The notes below the pieces were generated by a model that saw only the letters and a list, made by a program, of their open reading frames with translations, searched no databases and had not been told where the DNA came from. Below, piece by piece: positions 1,667 to 12,291 of a stretch of DNA of 64,000 bases (position 1 is the first letter of the stretch; each line of letters opens with the position of its first letter). The DNA comes from Hahella sp. HN01 (GTDB lineage Bacteria; Pseudomonadota; Gammaproteobacteria; Pseudomonadales; Oleiphilaceae). Both the position numbers and the translations under genes were made by a program. Location: the NCBI RefSeq assembly GCF_018986435.1, contig NZ_JAHMIN010000002.1, forward strand, positions 84,301-148,300, read 5' to 3'.

Positions 1667-4600
1667 ATGCTTAAGAAATGCCTATCCTTTTTCTCATTAT
1701 TGATATTACTGCTGTCGCTGTCCGCCTGCGGCGGCTCTTCCAGCTCGACGGACGACGCGCCGGCGACGACGGATGGCGGCGCGACGCCGACAGAACCGAC
1801 AGACCCTACTGATCCCGGCTCGCCCACACCGGGCGGCGATTCGGGCGCAGCGCCTAAAGTCAGCGCCGGCGGCAACCAGTATGCCGACCCCAATGTCGTG
1901 CTGTCTCTCGCGGGAACGGCGGAAGCGCTGGAAGGCGCTGAAATCGTAAGCACTACCTGGACTCAGGTGTCCGGGCCGACGGTTTATCTGTCTACGCCTG
2001 GCAGCCTGAGCAATATGATTCTGGCCCCTGACGTCACTAAAACCCAGACCTTGAGCTTTAAGCTGACAGCAAAAGACACCAAGGGCAAAGAAAGTTCGGA
2101 TACCGCCAGTATTGTGGTGGAGCCGCTCGCCAGTTTCGTGCGAGTGACTGGCTCCAGCGTTGATGAGGCGGCGGGTCAGGCGACTTTGAAACTGATCCTG
2201 AACCGAGCCTCCAATGCGCCGGTCACGGTGCAATACATGACCCAGGATGGCGCCGCCACCAGTGGCGAGGACTATGTCGCCGCTTCCGGCTCGGTCACCT
2301 TTGAGCCCGGCGAAACCGAGAAGACGATCGCCATTGAAATCATTGATGACGAAGATGAAGAAGCGGACGAGCCCTTTACCGTTCGTATTACCGCAACGGA
2401 AAACGGCGTGGTCGCCTCAGCCGTGGGCACAGTGGTCATTCGTAATGGAATGGATACCGCGCCGGAACTGAAAGAGCAGAATATCGCCTTTGTTACCGCC
2501 GGCCCCTTGAACGGTTTGGTTGGCGGCAGCCTCACTAATGTGATCGACGAGGAGGCGGCGCCAGGTTCGGGCGCCGTTTCTTATGCGACCGCTGACGAAA
2601 GTATCGCGACCGTGGATATTTCCTCTGGCGTGGTGCAACTAAAGTCCGCAGGCTCCACCGTGATTACCGCCGTCAAGGCGGCGGATTCTGAATACAAAGC
2701 CGCGCAGGCGACTTATACCGTTGTCGTGGAAAAGCGCCCTGGAGAGGTCACTTTCGCGACATCTGGGCCATACGCCGTCGCCTATGAGGATACCTTCACC
2801 AATATCGCTACAGGTATTGGCTCTGGCGAAGTACGCTATGCTTCCAGCAATCCGTCCGTCGCCAGCGTCACCTCTGGCGGCGTTGTGACGATTGTGGGCG
2901 TGGGCAGCGCCGTCATTACCTCCACGCAGCTGGCGGATGACGTCTATCTGGAGGCGACCGCCACCTACGCTATCGAAGCGGACAGAAAAAACCTGAGCCT
3001 GTCTTTCAAAGATGTTGGCCCTGTAGCGGGCGTCATTGGCGGAACCTATACCAACACTTTGTTGGGTAATAAAGGCTCTGGAGCGCTGAGCTATCTCAGC
3101 AACAATACCGAGGTCGCGACCGTGAACGCTGAGACCGGCCTTGTATCCTTCGTTGGCGAGGGCAATACGCATATTTCGGTAATCAGAGCGGACGACGGCC
3201 TCTACAAAGCGTCCACGGCTACTTACTCTGTTTCTGTAGGTAGAAAAATCCAGAGTATTGCCTTTGTAAATCCCGGGCCAGTGGAAGGCGTTTATGGGGA
3301 AACGGTTAGTAACCCCATCGAGGAAGGCGCTCCCGGCAGCGGCTCCGTAACCTATTCCTCCAGCAATACCTCTGTGGCGTCCGTTAATGTTGAAAGCGGC
3401 GTCGTACGACTCGTTGGCGCAGGCTCCGCTGTGATCACGGCGGAAAAGGCGGGCGATTCCGTCTACAGCAGCGCAATCGCCAAGTACACCCTGACTGTCA
3501 ACAAGAAGGCTCAGACGCTTTCGTTAAGAAACCCAGGGCCTATCGAAACCAATGTTGGCAACATCGTGACCAATGGCGTGACTGTTGTTGAGGGCGGCTC
3601 CGGCGCCTTGTCCTATAGCGCTGATGCGGAAACGGCTATTGAACTGGACAGGGAAACCGGTGAAGTGCACGCCGTCAGCGTAGGCGAAGCCCAGATCACC
3701 GTCACCAAAGCCGGCGACGCTAACTATAACGCGGCTTCCGTTAGCTATAAGGTCATCGTTGGCAAAGGCGTGCAGACCATCGCCTTTACGACGCCAGGCC
3801 CTGTCGCGTCCACCTTTGGCGACACCTACACTAACGTCATTACCAGCGGGGCCCCAGGGTCTGGCGCTTTGACTTATGCTTCCAGCAATGAAGGCATTGC
3901 GACAATAAACAGCGCTACCGGCGAAGTGACAATGGTCGGCGTCGGCAGTGTAGTAATTACCGCCACCAAGGCGGCGGATGCGAATTATGAAAGCGCAGAG
4001 GCCAGCTACACCATCAATGTGGCGAAGAAGACGCCTGCCCTTACTTTTGGCAGCGCAGGTCCATTGAGCCTGACTATCGGAGAGACCCTGACCAATGCAG
4101 CCACCAGTACGTCTACTGGTGCAGTGACCTATAGCGTTGGTGATTCCGCCATTGCGTCAGTCGATGCGGAAAGCGGTCTTGTGACGGCGCTAGGTGTTGG
4201 AAGCACCTCTATTATGGCGACACAGGCGGGAGATACGAATCACAACGCCGCCAGCGCCAAATATTCGCTGAATGTCAGCAAGAAAACGCAAACTATCGTC
4301 TTCACGCAGCCAGGCCCTCTGGACGGCGTTTATGGCGATACGCTGACCAACGCCATTACAGAAGGCGCGCCAGGAACCGGCGCTCTTCTCTACGCTTCCA
4401 ACAATACCAGCGTCGCGACGGTAAATAGCGAAACGGCTGTGGTGCAATTGGTAGGTGTTGGTACGGCGACGATCACCGCCACGAAGGAAGCGGACGCGAC
4501 CTATGAAGCCGCCACCGCCAGCTATACGATTACCGTGGCTAAGAAGGACCAGGTTATTACGTTTGAAAACCCAGGGCCAATCTACACGATTGTTGGTGAT

Positions 4601-6022
4601 GCGATAAATAACCCCGCTGGCACAGTTGAGGGGGGCGTGGGAGTTATTACATACAGCGTGGATAAGCCCAGCGTACTCGAACCTGGCTCCACCGCTGGCG
4701 TCTATAACGTGGTGGGAATGGGAGAGGCTGTAGTAACCGCGACCAAAGCTGGTGACGCTAATCATAATCCCGTCTCGCTGAAGTACTCTGTCTCCGCAAT
4801 AAGCGGCACGGTGAAATTCGTAGCATTTTTAGGCGAAGTGGAAACGGAAGTAAGAGTGAGCTCTGATGTCCTTGACGCTTCCATTGGTGAACTCTCCCTC
4901 TTTAGCTCGACTGAAGCTGGATGCGATATTACTAATCCTAGTTTATGTGAAAACGCAACAACGACTTCTATCGCTGGCGTTAGTATCACAGAGCCGGTCG
5001 CCAGACTTGATAGGACTGCGTATTACTGGTTAATGAATGGAACGAGCCCCAGCTCCAGCGTAAAAATTGCTCAGGGTGAAGGCGAAACCGCGAGTGAATT
5101 TGAAACGGTGAATAGTGTTCTTCCTCAACGATTTAATCATCAAATTGTCGAGTTCAAAAACAAACTATGGCTGATTGGTGGGATGCAACCAGCAGGGGAG
5201 GTCAGCGAGCCTCAAAATGATGTTTGGAACTCTTCTGATGGCGTTTACTGGAGTAAAGTGGCGACGATTGGATCGGAAGGCCTAAGCGAGCACGATGTGG
5301 TAGTTTTTAACGACCAGATCATCGTCTACAACAACGCCAATATATGGTTCTCCACAGATGGCGTGACATGGAATAAGCGCGATACTGATGCGGAGTATGG
5401 AGTTAGAAAAGATCAGGGATATGTGGTGTTTCAGGGCGCGGTTTGGAGTGTCGGTCATGCTTCTGGAGATGATTTCCCTTCCATATGGAAAAGTATTGAC
5501 GGCATAAACTGGCTCAATCAGGCCGATTTGGAGGGCATGTCATTACGGGGAGATTACAAGCTTGCCGTGATGAATGACAAGATCTGGATGGTAGCGGACG
5601 CTGCGGAGGGCAGTGTTCTCAAAAGCGATGTTTGGGAGACTCCCGACGGCGTTAATTGGACGCAAGTTTTGCCGGAAGGTGAAACGGCGTTCGGAGGCCG
5701 AATTTCCCACACATTGTTTGCCTATGATGGAAAACTCTGGGTGATTGGAGGTAGTGGGTCTGGGGTCATCTTTAACGACGTCTGGACATCTACGGACGGC
5801 AAGACATGGGTGTCTGACCCCAAGGCATCCGACTTTGATGCAAGATATGGGCATCAGTCACTACCTTTCGGAGGGCATTTATGGATATTCGGTGGGACTG
5901 TTGATTCTCTTAGCTTTTCCTCTCGTGTCGGCACTTGGCGCTCAGTAGATGCATTGGATTGGCGTCGTGTAGTGCGAGGCGCTTTCTCCTACCTGTCAGA
6001 AGGCGAACCCACGCCCATGTAA
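1667..6022 (+). CDS. Large surface lipoprotein: Calx-beta, nine Ig-like repeats, kelch-like C-terminus
   Basis: 1451 residues. A lipobox (LSAC-GG, Cys about 21) marks a lipoprotein and is followed by a Ser/Thr/Pro/Asp-rich spacer. Residues about 70-150 resemble a PKD/Ig fold, about 155-260 a Calx-beta domain (GEDYVAASGSVTFEPGE). Nine tandem repeats of about 87 residues follow (about 267-1047), each with a PGP-TN start, an SVATV-type core and an ITATKAGD-NY end, like bacterial Ig-like (Big_2) domains. The C-terminal 330 residues contain repeated NDVWxSxDGxxW motifs typical of kelch-like beta-propellers. The layout suggests a long stalk holding a propeller head away from the cell. It is probably co-transcribed with the upstream barrel protein. 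The ligand is unknown. Confidence 0.85.
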   Translation: MLKKCLSFFSLLILLLSLSACGGSSSSTDDAPATTDGGATPTEPTDPTDPGSPTPGGDSGAAPKVSAGGNQYADPNVVLSLAGTAEALEGAEIVSTTWTQVSGPTVYLSTPGSLSNMILAPDVTKTQTLSFKLTAKDTKGKESSDTASIVVEPLASFVRVTGSSVDEAAGQATLKLILNRASNAPVTVQYMTQDGAATSGEDYVAASGSVTFEPGETEKTIAIEIIDDEDEEADEPFTVRITATENGVVASAVGTVVIRNGMDTAPELKEQNIAFVTAGPLNGLVGGSLTNVIDEEAAPGSGAVSYATADESIATVDISSGVVQLKSAGSTVITAVKAADSEYKAAQATYTVVVEKRPGEVTFATSGPYAVAYEDTFTNIATGIGSGEVRYASSNPSVASVTSGGVVTIVGVGSAVITSTQLADDVYLEATATYAIEADRKNLSLSFKDVGPVAGVIGGTYTNTLLGNKGSGALSYLSNNTEVATVNAETGLVSFVGEGNTHISVIRADDGLYKASTATYSVSVGRKIQSIAFVNPGPVEGVYGETVSNPIEEGAPGSGSVTYSSSNTSVASVNVESGVVRLVGAGSAVITAEKAGDSVYSSAIAKYTLTVNKKAQTLSLRNPGPIETNVGNIVTNGVTVVEGGSGALSYSADAETAIELDRETGEVHAVSVGEAQITVTKAGDANYNAASVSYKVIVGKGVQTIAFTTPGPVASTFGDTYTNVITSGAPGSGALTYASSNEGIATINSATGEVTMVGVGSVVITATKAADANYESAEASYTINVAKKTPALTFGSAGPLSLTIGETLTNAATSTSTGAVTYSVGDSAIASVDAESGLVTALGVGSTSIMATQAGDTNHNAASAKYSLNVSKKTQTIVFTQPGPLDGVYGDTLTNAITEGAPGTGALLYASNNTSVATVNSETAVVQLVGVGTATITATKEADATYEAATASYTITVAKKDQVITFENPGPIYTIVGDAINNPAGTVEGGVGVITYSVDKPSVLEPGSTAGVYNVVGMGEAVVTATKAGDANHNPVSLKYSVSAISGTVKFVAFLGEVETEVRVSSDVLDASIGELSLFSSTEAGCDITNPSLCENATTTSIAGVSITEPVARLDRTAYYWLMNGTSPSSSVKIAQGEGETASEFETVNSVLPQRFNHQIVEFKNKLWLIGGMQPAGEVSEPQNDVWNSSDGVYWSKVATIGSEGLSEHDVVVFNDQIIVYNNANIWFSTDGVTWNKRDTDAEYGVRKDQGYVVFQGAVWSVGHASGDDFPSIWKSIDGINWLNQADLEGMSLRGDYKLAVMNDKIWMVADAAEGSVLKSDVWETPDGVNWTQVLPEGETAFGGRISHTLFAYDGKLWVIGGSGSGVIFNDVWTSTDGKTWVSDPKASDFDARYGHQSLPFGGHLWIFGGTVDSLSFSSRVGTWRSVDALDWRRVVRGAFSYLSEGEPTPM
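2464..4806 (+). repeat. Nine tandem Ig-like coding repeats (about 261 bp each)
   Basis: The translated units align end to end with conserved PGP, TN, GSGAxxYxSxNxSVATV, GVGSAxITATKAxDxxY and YTxxVxKK positions. Units 4, 6 and 8 are closest to each other (shared APGSG/APGTG and YASSN/YASNN segments), while units 2, 3, 5, 7 and 9 have diverged. Such an array can gain or lose units by recombination. Confidence 0.85.
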
Positions 6023-6045
6023 TCCAAAGGATTGTCATGTTCAAG

Positions 6046-6075
6046 AAACGCCGGCCTCGCGCCGGCGTTTTCATT
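6046..6075 (+). terminator. Perfect 10-bp hairpin terminator between convergent genes
   Basis: AAACGCCGGC and GCCGGCGTTT pair perfectly around a CTCGC loop, followed by TCATTT on the plus strand. On the minus strand the flanking AAATGA gives a short T stretch as well, so it probably serves both the lipoprotein gene and the minus-strand gene ending at 6075. Confidence 0.75.
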
Positions 6076-6818
6076 TAAACCAGACGCAAGGCCCGCTCGG
6101 AGACCAGCCTTTCCACCACACGAATTTTATGTGGGCCATTCTCTAACAGGCGATCAAGAGGCTGTGGCGCTGCGCATTGTTGTAGAACGTCTCTTTCCGT
6201 TGCGGTAGCGGCTCGCCAGTACTTTCTGACGCCGGGGGCCACCAGTACTGGATGGCTTCCTTCTGCGGCGGGCAGAGGCTGGTTCAACATCAGGGCGCAG
6301 AGTAGTTTTTCCGGCGCTGCGGGAAACTCGATTAATTGCGACATAGGCGCAATGACCACGGAAAAATTACGACAGCGATTACTGTTCGGCTCCATCGTGC
6401 TGACGGGGGAAAGTCGATACTCGTGAATCGCCTTCAGTGCGCTCTCGAACGTGGCCAGGGCCTGGAGCAGGGGATCCGCCGTATGCTCGCAGATGAAAGT
6501 TTTGAACGACATCGCCTCCGGTACAAAATAGAGCGAACGGCAGGGCGTCGCCCGCATATATTCCTCCACCAGCGCTTGTAACTGTAAACGTTCCAGCAGA
6601 CGTAAGGTCAGTGGCGCTGCGATTTGCAGTCTGGCTTTACGCCACCATTTTTGTACATCGCAGGTTACCCGAAACCCTTTGGACAGACTGAGTTCATGCA
6701 GCCAGACGCGTTCCGCCTCATTTAAGTTCAGATGACTTAGATCGACCTCGCCAGAGCATGCGGAAGTGTGGGAATGAATCATCTCCACCATTGCAATTTG
6801 CAGATCATGTAACGGCAT
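6075..6818 (-). CDS. Partner protein of a DUF692 enzyme (MbnC/HvfC-like), putative peptide-binding
   Basis: 247 residues, no signal peptide, so cytoplasmic. It overlaps the DUF692 gene by 14 bases, so the two are translationally coupled. The middle (about 85-135, YMRATPCRSLYFVPEAMSF then DPLLQALATFESAL) resembles the helical partner proteins that accompany DUF692 oxygenases, as MbnC does MbnB. The last 55 residues (RAATATERDVLQQC ... RLVSERALRLV) have the hydrophobic spacing of a small winged-helix domain, reminiscent of PqqD-type leader-binding domains. By analogy it would present the 7801-8163 precursor to the enzyme. I cannot assign a named family with certainty; the role rests mainly on gene order and overlap. 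Confidence 0.6.
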   Translation of the reverse strand: MPLHDLQIAMVEMIHSHTSACSGEVDLSHLNLNEAERVWLHELSLSKGFRVTCDVQKWWRKARLQIAAPLTLRLLERLQLQALVEEYMRATPCRSLYFVPEAMSFKTFICEHTADPLLQALATFESALKAIHEYRLSPVSTMEPNSNRCRNFSVVIAPMSQLIEFPAAPEKLLCALMLNQPLPAAEGSHPVLVAPGVRKYWRAATATERDVLQQCAAPQPLDRLLENGPHKIRVVERLVSERALRLV

Positions 6819-7737
6819 AGCGGCGCTCCTCTTTTACAGGCTGGCGATGACGCAACCAGATTTCCCGGGCTGTTTGCAGTTGTTGCTGAACGCCTCGTTC
6901 GCTGACGATATCCAACGCCTGCTCCAGCAACTCGTAAGTGATTGCATTGGCGTTAGGCGCACGCGGCAGAGTCCAGTCCAGCAACTCCCACACTGGCTGC
7001 GGCGTTTTGTCACTGTGTACGTCCAGTTGCAGGCCCTCATGGACAGCGCCGCCCGCTACGTGAATCTCGACCACCCGGCTCATGTCCAGGCGACTTAATG
7101 CTTCATAGACATCAAACCCAAAATTGATCGCGTTGCAGTAAAGGTTGTAGAGATCCAGCAAGAGACCGCAGGAGGTTCGTTCAGTGATGCGATTAAGGAA
7201 TTCAATCTCGTCCATGCCGGCGTCATGGGGCATATTCGGGAGGTAATAAGTCGTGTTCTCCAATAGAAACGGGACCTGATAACGCTGCTGTATCGCTTCT
7301 ATTCGCGGACAAATGATATTCAATGCTTCCTCCGTGAACGGCACGGGTAATTGCACGCCAGCGTGTAAGCCTGCGCCTTCAGCGGTGCGTATTTGCAGAA
7401 ATCCCAGGTGTTCGCTGTGCCAGTGAAATGGCTGCACGTCCGCAAAGTCATCCAGAATACGGATGTAGTCTTGGTTCCAACCGCTGGCGGAGCCTATCGA
7501 CAGACCGAGGCCATGCACGACGACAGGATACAGTCGACACCACTCGATGGCTGCGCTGAGCCGATCAGGGCTGAAGCCAGTGCGCCGTTGCGCGCCGTCC
7601 CAGTACTCCTGGCACAGAATGTCCGGACTGACTTCAATAAAGTCGATCACGTCCTCACAGCCGCGTAGAAGAGGAATAAACTCCGGCTGATAGTTAATGC
7701 CGACGCCCAACTTGGGCAAGGAAGGTAAAGCGTTCAT
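6805..7737 (-). CDS. DUF692 family multinuclear iron enzyme (MbnB/TglH/BufB-like)
   Basis: 310 residues, a usual length for a TIM-barrel DUF692 protein, cytoplasmic. Family metal-ligand motifs are visible in order: VHGLGLSIG, HWHSEHLGF, LLENTTYY, LLLDLYNLY(C)NA, EIHVAGG and DVHSDKTPQPVW. Known members (MbnB in methanobactin, TglH in 3-thiaglutamate, bufferin enzymes) use two or three irons and O2 to remodel cysteine or asparagine in ribosomal peptides. Here the enzyme lies 63 bases downstream of a small Cys-containing Tat-signal protein and overlaps its partner gene, an arrangement typical of precursor, enzyme and partner. The substrate and product are not known. Assignment to DUF692 is secure; a peptide-modifying role is a strong inference. 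Confidence 0.88.
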   Translation of the reverse strand: MNALPSLPKLGVGINYQPEFIPLLRGCEDVIDFIEVSPDILCQEYWDGAQRRTGFSPDRLSAAIEWCRLYPVVVHGLGLSIGSASGWNQDYIRILDDFADVQPFHWHSEHLGFLQIRTAEGAGLHAGVQLPVPFTEEALNIICPRIEAIQQRYQVPFLLENTTYYLPNMPHDAGMDEIEFLNRITERTSCGLLLDLYNLYCNAINFGFDVYEALSRLDMSRVVEIHVAGGAVHEGLQLDVHSDKTPQPVWELLDWTLPRAPNANAITYELLEQALDIVSERGVQQQLQTAREIWLRHRQPVKEERRYAVT

Positions 7738-7762
7738 GGCAAAGGCTCCGGCTGCTGTCCCG

Positions 7763-7784
7763 CCGGTCCGGCAGACCGGACCGG
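7763..7784 (-). promoter_or_regulatory. Perfect 9-bp hairpin between precursor and enzyme genes
   Basis: CCGGTCCGG and CCGGACCGG pair around a 4-base loop in the 63-base gap between the precursor stop and the DUF692 start. No T tract follows on the minus strand. It may stabilise the precursor mRNA or reduce read-through so that precursor exceeds enzyme. Confidence 0.5.
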
Positions 7785-7800
7785 TTGAGTTAATTGGCGC

Positions 7801-8163
7801 TTATCCGCCGTAAAGAGTGACGTTGACAGGAATCTTGGACTGGATTTTGACAACAGGGTCCAGTCCCAGGCGCAGATCGAGACCGACCAACCCGCAGGTA
7901 GGGCAGCCTGACTGGTTCAGAATCTGTTCCAGAATATTCTGCAAGTCCCAGATGCTGACTTCGTACTGCGGATCGAATGAAGCGCTGACAGTTTTACGGT
8001 CGCGGGATACGCCACTGTCGTCCGCGGCGGAAGCGACGCCGGAAAGACTGGTGATAGAGGCTGCGCCAGTTACCAACGCGGCGTTACGAAGAAAGGTGCG
8101 GCGATCGCTTTCGCTGGCTTGTGGACGAGTGCTTGCGGATACGTCGTTAGTTGTGTCGGACAT
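7801..8163 (-). CDS. Small Tat-signal protein with CPTC motif, putative DUF692 substrate
   Basis: 120 residues. Residues 20-27 read DRRTFLRN, a clear twin-arginine motif, followed by a mild hydrophobic stretch (about 28-44) and an ASA/AD cleavage site after residue 46. The mature part is about 74 residues, with a predicted helix (about 70-84, IWDLQNILEQIL), then SGCPTCG (Cys87 and Cys90, the only cysteines), a Leu/Gly/Asp segment and a beta-like C-terminus ending in GG. A strong AAGGAGAG ribosome site lies upstream. As first gene of the DUF692 cluster it is the natural candidate precursor. DUF692 substrates I know of carry Sec-type or no signals; a Tat signal would fit export after cytoplasmic modification or metal loading. 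No family name can be given. Confidence 0.7.
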   Translation of the reverse strand: MSDTTNDVSASTRPQASESDRRTFLRNAALVTGAASITSLSGVASAADDSGVSRDRKTVSASFDPQYEVSIWDLQNILEQILNQSGCPTCGLVGLDLRLGLDPVVKIQSKIPVNVTLYGG

Positions 8164-10044: not shown

Positions 10045-10848
10045 ATGTTTACATGTTCGCCACGCAATCTGGCATATATTGTATTTCTTCTTTTCACCCT
10101 CTCGGCCCATGCGGAAGAAGACGAGTTTCCCGGTCGTCGCCAATATCCGGCCGTAGATTTCATTGAACTCCAGGAGTTTTATCAGCAGCTGGCTGCTGGC
10201 GAAATTGTCGCCGTCGACGTAAGGACGGACTATGAGTACAACACGCTGCACATAAAGGGCGCTTTCAACGTCTCATACACATCCCATAACTTCGCGGAGG
10301 AAATGCAGGCGTTGCAGAAGCAGCATCCCGGCAAGAAGCTGGCGTTGTATTGCAACGGTAAAACCTGTCTCAAATCCTATAAAGCCGCCAGCAAATGCCG
10401 TAAATACGGCATTGAGAACGTCATCGTCTACGACGCAGGAGTGTTTGATTACGCCAAAGCGTACCCGCAAGACACCAACCTGTTTGGCGAAATCCTGGGC
10501 GATCCCGCTCGCCTCATCGGCAAGGACAAACTCAAGGCGCACACGATTACGGTGGCGGAGTTTGAAGATAAAATCGTCAAAACCGATGGCATTGTTCTGG
10601 ATGTGCGCGACAAACAGCAAAGAGAAGGCATCGCCATCTTTTTCATGCGTGAAAAACGCGCGCCTTTGGATCGTCCGGATTTGATCGACCGTTACATCAA
10701 TCAGGCGAAGAAACGCAACGTGCCTTTGTTGATCTACGATCAAGCGGGCAAGCAGATCCGATGGCTGCAGTACTATCTGGAGAAGCAGAACGTATCTTCC
10801 TACTACTTCATGGCCGGAGGAATCGACGAATACTATAAAACGCTTTAG
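10045..10848 (+). CDS. Periplasmic tandem rhodanese-domain protein
   Basis: 267 residues with a signal peptide ending AHA/EE near residue 23. The first rhodanese domain (about 35-140) has the DVRTDYEY segment and an active-site loop with Cys103 (YCNGKTC). The second (about 165-265, LDVRDKQQREG) has IYDQAG where the cysteine should be and is probably inactive. Rhodaneses move sulfane sulfur between carriers. The next genes encode a sulfite dehydrogenase and its cytochrome, so this protein may deliver or consume sulfur in the same periplasmic pathway. A gap of about 125 bases with a hairpin separates it from sorA; same-operon status is likely but unproven. Confidence 0.82.
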   Translation: MFTCSPRNLAYIVFLLFTLSAHAEEDEFPGRRQYPAVDFIELQEFYQQLAAGEIVAVDVRTDYEYNTLHIKGAFNVSYTSHNFAEEMQALQKQHPGKKLALYCNGKTCLKSYKAASKCRKYGIENVIVYDAGVFDYAKAYPQDTNLFGEILGDPARLIGKDKLKAHTITVAEFEDKIVKTDGIVLDVRDKQQREGIAIFFMREKRAPLDRPDLIDRYINQAKKRNVPLLIYDQAGKQIRWLQYYLEKQNVSSYYFMAGGIDEYYKTL

Positions 10849-10866
10849 GCGGACCAGACCGGCCGT

Positions 10867-10893
10867 GCGGAAAAGCCTGTCAGGCGCTTTCCG
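10867..10893 (+). other. Imperfect hairpin between rhodanese and sorA
   Basis: GCGGAAA and TTTCCGC, with an inner GCCT/AGGC, can fold between the two genes. There is no T tract, so it is more likely a processing or attenuation element than a full terminator. Confidence 0.35.
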
Positions 10894-10974
10894 CGCCGCC
10901 TGAGCGTAAATGAGCGTCGTTTCCAATTTATAAAACCACCCTAGGCAAGGGACATAAAAAAGTGAGGAACCACC

Positions 10975-12291
10975 ATGACGGATGATAAGAAAGAACGGGG
11001 GCTGTATGAGTTGTACGCGGATGATCCAGAGCGCGCGGACTATCTGGTGTTTGGGCGCCGCGCCCACTCTGATCGACGCGGCTTTCTGAAAGGCGCCGGC
11101 CTGGGCGCCATGGGGGCGATGCTGGGAATGGCGATTCCTTTTCATCGCAATTTCCCCTCCGGTCTGATACCGGCTGCGATGGCGGAAGACACGGAAATCG
11201 CCTTATTTGGCGGTAAAGACGGACTGACCTTGCTGAACGACCGTCCTATCAACGCGGAAACCCCCGCTCACCTGCTTGATGACGCTGTCACTCCCACCAG
11301 CCGGCATTTCGTCCGTAATAACGGCGTTGTGCCGGAGATCGCGCATCGCATGGATGCGTCTGACTGGAAGCTGACCATCGACGGTGAAGTTGAGAAAGTG
11401 CTGGAGCTGTCGTTGGATGAACTCAAGTCCAAGTTCAAACCGGTCACGCTGAAGCTGCAGTTGGAGTGTGGCGGTAATGGACGCGCGGCGTTCAATCCTC
11501 CGGCGAAGGGCAATCAGTGGACAGTGGGCGCTATCGGCAACGCCGAGTGGACAGGGGTGCGTTACGCGGATTTATTGAAGGCGGCGGGCGTCAAACCGTC
11601 AGCGATTTATACTGCGCATCACAGTCTGGACGGACACTTGTCCGGCGATCCCAGCAAAACCCCGATCTCCAGAGGCGTGCCTATTTCCAAGGCGATGGAC
11701 CCTCACTCCATTATCGCCTATGCGATGAACGGCGAGCCTCTGCCGGCGCTGCATGGCTTTCCAGTGCGCACCATCTGTCCGGGTTGGCCGGGCTCCACCT
11801 CGCAAAAATGGCTGAGCCGAATTCAGTTGCGGGATGTGGTGCATGACGGCCCCAAAATGACTGGATCTTCCTATCGCGTGCCCAAATTCCCGGTGGCGCC
11901 CGGAACGCATGTTGCGGACGAGGACTACAAAATCATTGAGTCCATGCCGGTCAAGTCCCTGATCACCACGCCACAGACAAACCAGACCATCAAGACGCGC
12001 ACTCTGAAAGTGCACGGCCATGCCTGGGCGGGGGATAACGTGGTCAAGCGCATGGATATCTCTTATGACTTCGGCGTCACCTGGGTGCAGGCGGATCTGA
12101 AAGCGCCACCCAATCCTTACTCCTGGCAGGAGTGGTATGCGGAAGTGACTTTCCCCACTCGCGGCTACTATGAAATCTGGGCCAGAGCCACGGATGACAA
12201 AGGCAACATGCAGCCTTTCGCTGTGAACTGGAATCCAAAAGGGTACCTGAACAACAGCATGCACCGTATTGCGGTGATCGTGGACGCTTGA
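10975..12291 (+). CDS. sorA: Sulfite dehydrogenase, molybdopterin subunit (SorA/SoxC-like)
   Basis: 438 residues. A late twin-arginine motif, SDRRGFLK at residues 32-39, precedes a hydrophobic stretch and AMA/ED near 70, so the folded cofactor enzyme is exported by Tat. The molybdopterin domain holds the Mo-ligand cysteine (Cys165, LECGGNGR) and the GFPVRTICPGWPG segment. The C-terminal quarter is the Mo-co dimerisation domain (VHGHAWAGDNVVKRMDISYDFGVTW). Family role: oxidation of sulfite to sulfate with electrons passed to a cytochrome c. The cytochrome gene 156 bases downstream supports SorAB over SoxCD; no other sox genes are visible. SoxC-like activity cannot be excluded from sequence alone. 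Confidence 0.85.
   Translation: MTDDKKERGLYELYADDPERADYLVFGRRAHSDRRGFLKGAGLGAMGAMLGMAIPFHRNFPSGLIPAAMAEDTEIALFGGKDGLTLLNDRPINAETPAHLLDDAVTPTSRHFVRNNGVVPEIAHRMDASDWKLTIDGEVEKVLELSLDELKSKFKPVTLKLQLECGGNGRAAFNPPAKGNQWTVGAIGNAEWTGVRYADLLKAAGVKPSAIYTAHHSLDGHLSGDPSKTPISRGVPISKAMDPHSIIAYAMNGEPLPALHGFPVRTICPGWPGSTSQKWLSRIQLRDVVHDGPKMTGSSYRVPKFPVAPGTHVADEDYKIIESMPVKSLITTPQTNQTIKTRTLKVHGHAWAGDNVVKRMDISYDFGVTWVQADLKAPPNPYSWQEWYAEVTFPTRGYYEIWARATDDKGNMQPFAVNWNPKGYLNNSMHRIAVIVDA

Follow-up and report, generated by a model that had tools for sequence, protein, structure and literature searches.

A three-gene MNIO (DUF692) operon in Hahella, very probably adjamnio-2, with a Tat-type signal on its putative precursor

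Does a compact gene cluster in Hahella sp. HN01 make a small cysteine-bearing protein that is modified in the cytoplasm and then exported by the Tat route? This question is raised by one locus in the window, by which we mean the whole 64,000-nucleotide stretch of DNA that was analysed. Our answer, which rests on sequence comparison and to which we give a probability of about 0.6, is that the locus is an MNIO (DUF692) modification operon of minimal gene content, very probably adjamnio-2, whose precursor would be modified on its cysteines in the cytoplasm and whose product would be Tat-exported, probably with a metal bound. The three minus-strand genes claimed in an earlier note on this DNA were found as ORFs where that note had placed them, and the features of the locus are the following.

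7801..8163, minus strand: putative MNIO substrate (precursor), 120 aa; an ORF with orthologues in other genomes
8083..8106, minus strand: twin-arginine motif DRRTFLRN, residues 20-27 of the precursor; RRxFLRN conservation and TIGR01409
7894..7905, minus strand: CPTC, Cys87-Cys90 of the precursor, probable modification site; GCxxCG in 10/10 homologues
7804..8004, minus strand: precursor core domain, residues 54-120; amino-acid identity in four genomes, dS
7763..7784, minus strand: 9-bp stem-loop in the gap between precursor and enzyme genes; hairpin in 9/9 gammaproteobacterial operons
6805..7737, minus strand: DUF692/MNIO enzyme, 310 aa; PF05114 E 5.6e-57
7015..7023, minus strand: Asp239-x-His241 of the enzyme, aligning with HvfB Asp242/His244; D and H in 10/12 clade enzymes
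6075..6818, minus strand: partner protein (PME-type 2), 247 aa, distantly similar to DUF2063 proteins; sub-cut-off DUF2063 score and profile-profile match
6043..6070, minus strand: terminator-like hairpin 3' of the partner gene; 10-11-bp stem in 4/4 genomes of the genus

The enzyme, its partner and the identity of the operon

The enzyme matches PF05114 with 193.4 bits against a gathering score of 25, and it falls below the cut-off of all five NCBIfam equivalogs matched, including BufB (151.6 bits vs 310), HvfB (149.2 vs 360) and ChrH (81.4 vs 600). By sequence, its nearest solved structures are TglH (8HCI, E 4.3e-26) and the HvfB-like MNIO 3BWW (E 2.8e-25). The intact iron-ligand motifs described earlier were borne out at all 12 positions checked (H75, H107, E109, H110, E160, N161, D195, N198, H226, D239, H241 and E269); which of these would be ligands is judged partly from the 3BWW alignment and the HvfB residues. 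In a tree with 32 other MNIOs, the window-type enzymes form one clade (12/12 rows, 100/100). Asp239 and His241 are kept in 10 of these 12 enzymes and are replaced by N and R (D239N, H241R) in two, L009 and L010, from genomes that have no precursor; HvfB Asp242/His244, judged equivalent to this pair, are reported to be essential (PMC13419390).

The partner ORF overlaps the enzyme ORF by 14 nt, and no recognisable metal gene lies within the operon. The partner scores 16 bits with DUF2063 (cut-off 27.2) and 19.6 bits with HvfC (cut-off 142), and Pfam searches with the partners of loci L062 and L063 gave zero matches. When the profile of the partner family (9 rows) was compared with one built from ten DUF2063 partners, the two matched at a probability of 79% (E 1.6e-5). 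The partner's sole match among solved structures is complement C4 (E 1.4-1.6), which we take as chance. The AlphaFold models, three sequences each, have a mean pLDDT of 40 for the precursor and 46 for the partner, so that these folds give no evidence on either protein.

The earlier note regarded the cluster as the strongest candidate in the window for an undescribed system. This view is not supported, since Antoine et al. (2025, PMC12452194) already list adjamnio-2, a putative precursor family with a representative from Hahella sp. KA22, no predicted Sec signal and a PME-type 2 partner; the name 'adjamnio' was found in this one paper. The window cluster and adjamnio-2 share the host Hahella, a Cys motif and the partner type. 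The window precursor lies directly upstream of a non-bufferin MNIO, its partner is DUF2063-related without a Pfam signature, and by TIGR01409 its signal is of the Tat type. The other two MNIO operons of the window genome are of the bufferin type, one (L002) with a DUF2282 precursor, Buf1, and the other (L001) with a six-Cys precursor. The window precursor is thus very probably adjamnio-2 by elimination among the MNIO operons of the window genome alone, rather than by direct comparison with WP_127967852.1 or MNIO SSN cluster 2.

The bufferins (Buf1/Buf2, BufB/BufC) likewise have a precursor-MNIO-partner operon and a Cys-bearing exported precursor, but they differ in their Sec-type signals, more numerous cysteines and partners that score above the DUF2063 cut-off. 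The window MNIO reaches half the BufB cut-off score and belongs to a different clade, and a Pfam search of the precursor gave zero matches. Substrates of the ChrH/DybH type likewise have a CPxCG-like motif and include precursors with other export signals (lipoprotein, signal peptidase I), but there the motif is C-terminal and goes with another MNIO subfamily (PMC12636315). The target of TglH is a C-terminal Cys attached to a scaffold peptide, a substrate unlike the window precursor.

Conservation of the precursor and its pairing with the enzyme

The lone CPTC motif claimed earlier contains both cysteines of the precursor, C87 and C90, in SGCPTCGLVG. GCxxCG is conserved in 10/10 precursor homologues, six of which are just 25-36% identical to the window protein, and residues 54-120 show zero amino-acid differences across four genomes at pairwise dS values of 0.24 to 0.81. 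By these figures the core is under strong purifying selection, and the conservation of motif and core exceeds chance. The precursor does end in GG, as had been pointed out, in the window's genus, but this is not conserved in the Cellvibrionaceae precursors, which end in QR, PR, MG or NR, and we therefore reject this GG as a site of processing. The precursor profile matched two arsenite-oxidase subunits among solved structures (E 0.21 and 0.36, at profile positions 20-70, the part with the Tat signal) and did not match the partner profile.

Precursor orthologues occur in three other genomes of the genus, five Cellvibrionaceae genomes and one Acidimicrobiia MAG. A precursor-based search of the seven genomes of the window's genus found precursor and enzyme both present in four and both missing in three. 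Among 144 Cellvibrionaceae genomes, five have precursor and enzyme, two have enzyme and partner without the precursor, and none has a true precursor without the enzyme. Searching these 144 genomes with the precursor instead returned the same five and one false match (G057), which by eye is a Tat iron-sulfur oxidoreductase subunit and was dropped from the tally; repeated copies of one locus were counted once. Homologues mostly without DUF692 neighbours, the pattern named earlier as speaking against the idea, were not seen: all 10 lie directly upstream of the enzyme gene, although six of them were first reached via the enzyme. On this co-occurrence, the precursor and the DUF692 enzyme appear to work as a pair. 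The enzymes without a precursor lack D239/H241 as if they had decayed after loss of the substrate, in one lineage only, and such genomes offer a natural comparison.

It is nevertheless conceivable that the precursor is not a substrate, its unmodified GCxxCG binding metal or forming a disulfide while the MNIO and its partner act elsewhere. A pair of spaced cysteines often serves as an unmodified metal site, there is no known product, and two Cellvibrionaceae genomes retain enzyme and partner without the precursor. The invariable position of the precursor directly upstream of the enzyme and the loss of D239/H241 in the precursor-less enzymes argue against this explanation, which we consider unlikely.

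If the cysteines are the target, their chemistry could also be chryseobasin-like, with a macrocycle or heterocycle formed on CPxCG, as CPTCGLVG resembles the CPxCGxG of ChrH-type substrates (PMC12636315). The proline, however, varies among the precursors (CLNCG, CLACG, CLTCG, CVPCG), the motif is internal rather than C-terminal, and the enzyme scores about 150 bits with BufB and HvfB against 81 bits with ChrH, all of which makes such chemistry improbable here.

The Acidimicrobiia relative has 80 residues and keeps GCxxCG without a Tat signal; its homology is modest, with 20.8 bits and E 8.7e-7 in its own locus, but among all 3,188 ORFs three non-homologous Tat-signal matches outscore it (25.1, 22.7 and 21.9 bits). 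At E<=1e-60 the MNIO subfamily was found in the window genome alone in a phylum sample of 398, and in the MAG itself alone in an Acidimicrobiia sample of 198. Viral contigs gave 65 pattern matches, none of which encodes a relative. Plasmids gave zero matches to the C. mixtus precursor, and the other MNIOs on plasmids (353 records) were each below 60% identity.

With the window genome excluded, extra weak precursor matches numbered three among 293 genomes of the order and eight among 369 of the class, with two further places in genome G293. Seven of the 13 were inspected, leaving out L006, L007, L041, L042, L064 and L070, and by eye they were rejected as other Tat proteins, Tat peptides of formate-dehydrogenase regions, a MerR-like and a DUF59-like protein, and one large oxidoreductase. 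L068 and L069, both among these seven, have CxxCG in a different context.

The export signal

The twin-arginine motif DRRTFLRN noted earlier lies at precursor residues 20-27, and the NCBIfam Tat-signal domain model TIGR01409 scores the window precursor at 17.2 against a cut-off of 16.7. The precursor has the twin-arginine motif, h-region and AxA site expected in the sequence of a Tat substrate, with AxA, after which cleavage would occur, at residues 44-46. The suggested check for co-occurrence of Tat motif and CxxCG found them together in 9/9 gammaproteobacterial precursors.

Most MNIO precursors carry Sec signals (PMC12452194), which raises the alternative of a bufferin-like, Sec-exported precursor whose double arginine is incidental. 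Peak hydrophobicity fails to separate Tat from Sec among the nine Tat-type signals, three of which (1.5, 1.8 and 2.3) overlap the values for the pair of bufferin-type signals from the window genome (2.0 and 2.4). Against Sec export, RRxFLRN is retained in all nine gammaproteobacterial precursors while the remainder of the signal diverges, TIGR01409 matches 8/10 family members at E<=0.05, and adjamnio-2, the most likely identity, is recorded without a predicted Sec signal (PMC12452194). We thus regard an incidental double arginine as quite doubtful.

No link between Tat and MNIO products was found in the literature among the matches listed. In the text available to us, PMC12509749 and PMC10304878 name Tat solely for other proteins or in references, 'Tat pathway' is absent from PMC12636315, and the main text of PMC12452194 nowhere mentions Tat or arginine. 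The family is very probably catalogued already, and what looks unusual among such peptides is a Tat-type tag, typical of finished folded cargo. The CxxCG of the Acidimicrobiia homologue, which has no Tat signal, indicates that the chemistry does not inherently depend on Tat; tentatively, the family may have gained (or lost) this signal as a separable unit attached to a conserved GCxxCG core.

Antoine et al. discuss that some mechanism must hold back the signal-bearing precursor until it is modified (PMC12452194). We speculate that with putative Tat export the preference of this route for finished, folded cargo may stand in for the masking of the signal that has been attributed to bufferin partners, and would let none but modified precursor out of the cell, a possibility that we put forward tentatively. 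If true, MNIO products would extend to the folded-protein export route. With no more than three genes and one two-cysteine site in its Tat-type precursor, the operon would offer a clean test of a block on export before modification.

Proposed mechanism and the inter-gene hairpin

In the modification-and-export scheme that we favour, the precursor would be synthesised in the cytoplasm bearing its Tat signal, and the MNIO with its DUF2063-like partner would oxidise one or both cysteines of GCxxCG, most likely to a group of the thiooxazole or oxazolone-thioamide type. A conserved non-Cys residue is very unlikely as the target, although D73 shows no variation and D96 almost none and non-Cys MNIO chemistry is on record, because GCxxCG lies at the centre of the invariant block and the introduction of PMC12452194 names as non-Cys targets Asp or Asn at the C-terminus, or Phe. 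We infer that modification precedes export: the finished protein would leave by Tat and be cut after AxA, and the mature periplasmic protein of about 74 residues would probably bind a soft metal such as copper.

The stem-loop between precursor and enzyme genes is present in 9/9 gammaproteobacterial operons. Its stability against shuffles corresponds to z of -2.4 to -4.8 in the five Cellvibrionaceae and of only -0.7 to -1.3, barely more stable than shuffles and without a U-run, in the four genomes of the window's genus, and such a hairpin fits surplus synthesis of the precursor.

The cluster and its relation to described families

The earlier note described a compact group of three minus-strand genes around a DUF692 (MNIO) enzyme, and this observation is correct.

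7801-8163, minus strand: putative precursor, an ORF of 120 residues
6805-7737, minus strand: DUF692/MNIO enzyme, with a PF05114 match
6075-6818, minus strand: partner, overlapping the enzyme gene by 14 nt

The precursor passes the NCBIfam Tat-signal model (17.2 against a cut-off of 16.7), has no Pfam family match and contains exactly two cysteines, both inside GCPTCG. The enzyme matches PF05114 with an E-value of 5.6e-57 and scores far under every cut-off of the NCBIfam BufB, HvfB, ApyH, ChrH and MbnB models. In a tree with 32 further MNIOs drawn from the order and the genus, the window kind, 12 enzymes in all, is set apart by a branch of 100/100 support; the tree tool flagged long branches, including that of the Acidimicrobiia enzyme (L063) and the join of L009 and L010, the loci of G209 and G288. 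The partner reaches 16 bits against DUF2063, under the cut-off of 27.2, and is missed by that model; it has a weak HvfC match, and the partners of Cellvibrio mixtus J3-8 and of the Acidimicrobiia MAG match no Pfam family. A 9-row profile of the partner family matches one built from ten partners of other MNIOs, all of which match DUF2063, with 79% probability (E 1.6e-5), a result that fits the PME-type 2 partner class. The AlphaFold model of the partner is too weak for judging the fold.

Antoine et al. 2025 (PMC12452194) describe putative precursor families that adjoin small MNIO clusters. One of these, adjamnio-2, is represented by Hahella sp. KA22, has no predicted Sec signal and is accompanied by a PME-type 2 partner. 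The window genome carries two other MNIO operons outside the window, L002 with a DUF2282 (Buf1) precursor and L001 with a six-Cys precursor that has no Pfam match and that, on visual inspection, resembles Buf2. Judged in the same way, the signals of both precursors are Sec-like; the partners in both operons exceed the DUF2063 cut-off. Because these two operons are bufferin-type, the cluster put forward in the earlier note as a candidate for an undescribed system is by elimination very probably (about 85%) adjamnio-2, a putative family already catalogued; the elimination covers the operons of this genome. The words "Tat" and "arginine" are absent from the main text of PMC12452194, and no literature joining Tat with MNIO products appears among the matches listed. 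The Tat-type signal is thus an export feature for which no report was found among these matches. ChrH-type substrates with lipoprotein and signal-peptidase-I signals are already in print (PMC12636315).

Pairing of precursor and enzyme

In the genus Hahella the precursor is present in 4/7 genomes, the window genome and three mates, and the orthologous enzyme in the same four, with 92-98% identity of the mates' enzymes to that of the window; the other three genomes have one distant MNIO apiece. Querying the named genomes with the window enzyme gave no match, and an alignment query revealed relatives in Cellvibrio mixtus J3-8 and in an Acidimicrobiia MAG, both with precursor, enzyme and partner in the gene order of the window. 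Among 144 genomes of Cellvibrionaceae, C. mixtus J3-8 included, seven have the MNIO subfamily and six a precursor-profile match; the two occur together, in the expected order, in five genomes, which belong to a single genus. The sixth match, in genome G057, was rejected as by eye a Tat iron-sulfur protein. The proposal that the small protein is paired with the DUF692 enzyme is well supported.

An MNIO of some kind occurs in 196 of the 293 genomes of the order, but one near the window kind only in the window genome and in G209 and G288, both members of Cellvibrionaceae (identity 47%, E at most 1e-80); the next-best MNIO has an E-value of 5e-36. The subfamily is patchy further afield (1/398 in a phylum sample, 1/198 in an Acidimicrobiia sample), these single positives being the query genomes themselves. 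Precursor queries built from this genus alone revealed no clear further precursor in 293 genomes of the order and 369 of the class, with weak matches inspected in part. Among 3,188 ORFs, such queries recover all five precursors of Cellvibrionaceae with E-values from 1e-12 to 1e-16, so precursors as close as these should have shown; relatives as distant as the Acidimicrobiia protein would be missed.

G209 and G288, the other two of the seven Cellvibrionaceae enzyme carriers, have an orphan MNIO of the window subfamily with a partner gene and without a precursor: no precursor-like ORF of at least 20 residues lies in the 500-600 bases upstream of the enzyme, and precursor-profile searches of both whole genomes found none. 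D239 and H241, present in the 10 other clade members, are replaced by N and R in these two enzymes. By alignment to 3BWW, we infer that these positions are equivalent to D242 and H244 of HvfB, whose replacement abolished activity according to PMC13419390. Altered residues where the precursor is missing fit an enzyme-precursor pairing but are suggestive only, because the two genomes represent one lineage. A block of genes that look pilin-like by eye lies upstream of both orphan MNIOs.

Conserved motif, Tat signal and a proposed route

The columns without variation in the 10 precursor homologues are M1, D73, G86, C87, C90, G91, P103 and V104. All nine gammaproteobacterial precursors contain RRxFLRN, the rest of their N-termini being divergent. 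Residues 54-120 are identical in the four genus genomes at pairwise dS of 0.24-0.81, with an estimated dN of 0 in 5/6 pairs and of 0.007 in the sixth, an effect of the method's path counting as no residue differs; all amino-acid changes fall within residues 1-53. An additional cysteine common to all five precursors of Cellvibrionaceae lies a few residues past the predicted Tat cleavage site (AQTCYDA), in a setting that is not lipobox-like.

The Acidimicrobiia protein (L063:3693-3935) has 80 residues, GCVPCG and no export signal by eye, and its gene, in a three-gene arrangement like that of the window, ends 5 nt before the enzyme start. A profile that excludes this protein still recovers it with 20.8 bits (E 8.7e-7) when only the ORFs of its locus are searched; against 3,188 ORFs its E-value is 4.8e-5, and it ranks under three false matches (25.1, 22.7 and 21.9 bits) that match via their Tat signal or are unrelated. 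We accept it as a precursor homologue because it lies beside the enzyme and has GCxxCG, but the sequence similarity is modest. The co-occurrence of Tat signal and CxxCG that the earlier note proposed to check thus holds in the nine gammaproteobacterial precursors but not in this protein, suggesting that GCxxCG travels with the enzyme and the Tat signal with the gammaproteobacterial lineage.

Three observations, the shared inheritance of precursor and enzyme, the invariant motif and the altered enzyme of genomes that lack the precursor, suggest that the enzyme and partner most likely act in the cytoplasm to oxidise the cysteines of GCxxCG; the conserved RRxFLRN signal suggests that Tat would then export the product. 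The chemistry, the metal involved and the sequence of steps are inferred by analogy with bufferins, oxazolins and methanobactins. The discussion of PMC12452194 asks how export ahead of modification is avoided, and the Tat reading, if true, would answer this question.

Operon layout and surroundings

A stem-loop is present in the precursor-enzyme gap of all nine gammaproteobacterial operons, the Acidimicrobiia gap being just 5 nt. Measured against shuffles, the five Cellvibrionaceae stem-loops are more stable (z -2.4 to -4.8), and that of C. mixtus resembles an intrinsic terminator. The four in the window genus are GC-rich, 9-11 bp long and barely stabler than shuffles (z -0.7 to -1.3), with no U-run. 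We read the stem-loop as a possible device yielding precursor in excess over enzyme, with reservation because the window-genus stems lack a U-run and are near shuffle stability. The L001 operon also has a hairpin between its precursor and MNIO genes.

In G294 and G295, where the cluster is absent, different genes adjoin uridine kinase (L093 and L092), so no clean empty site emerged and the region differs between species; G297 yielded no uridine kinase. A gene for a surface-type protein of 1451 residues that matches Big_2, Calx-beta and kelch (1667-6022) is convergent with the cluster, and at 10045-12291 a rhodanese-domain protein adjoins a molybdopterin oxidoreductase that has a Tat-like SDRRGFLKG motif. 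Downstream of the partner gene, all four genus genomes have a terminator-like hairpin.
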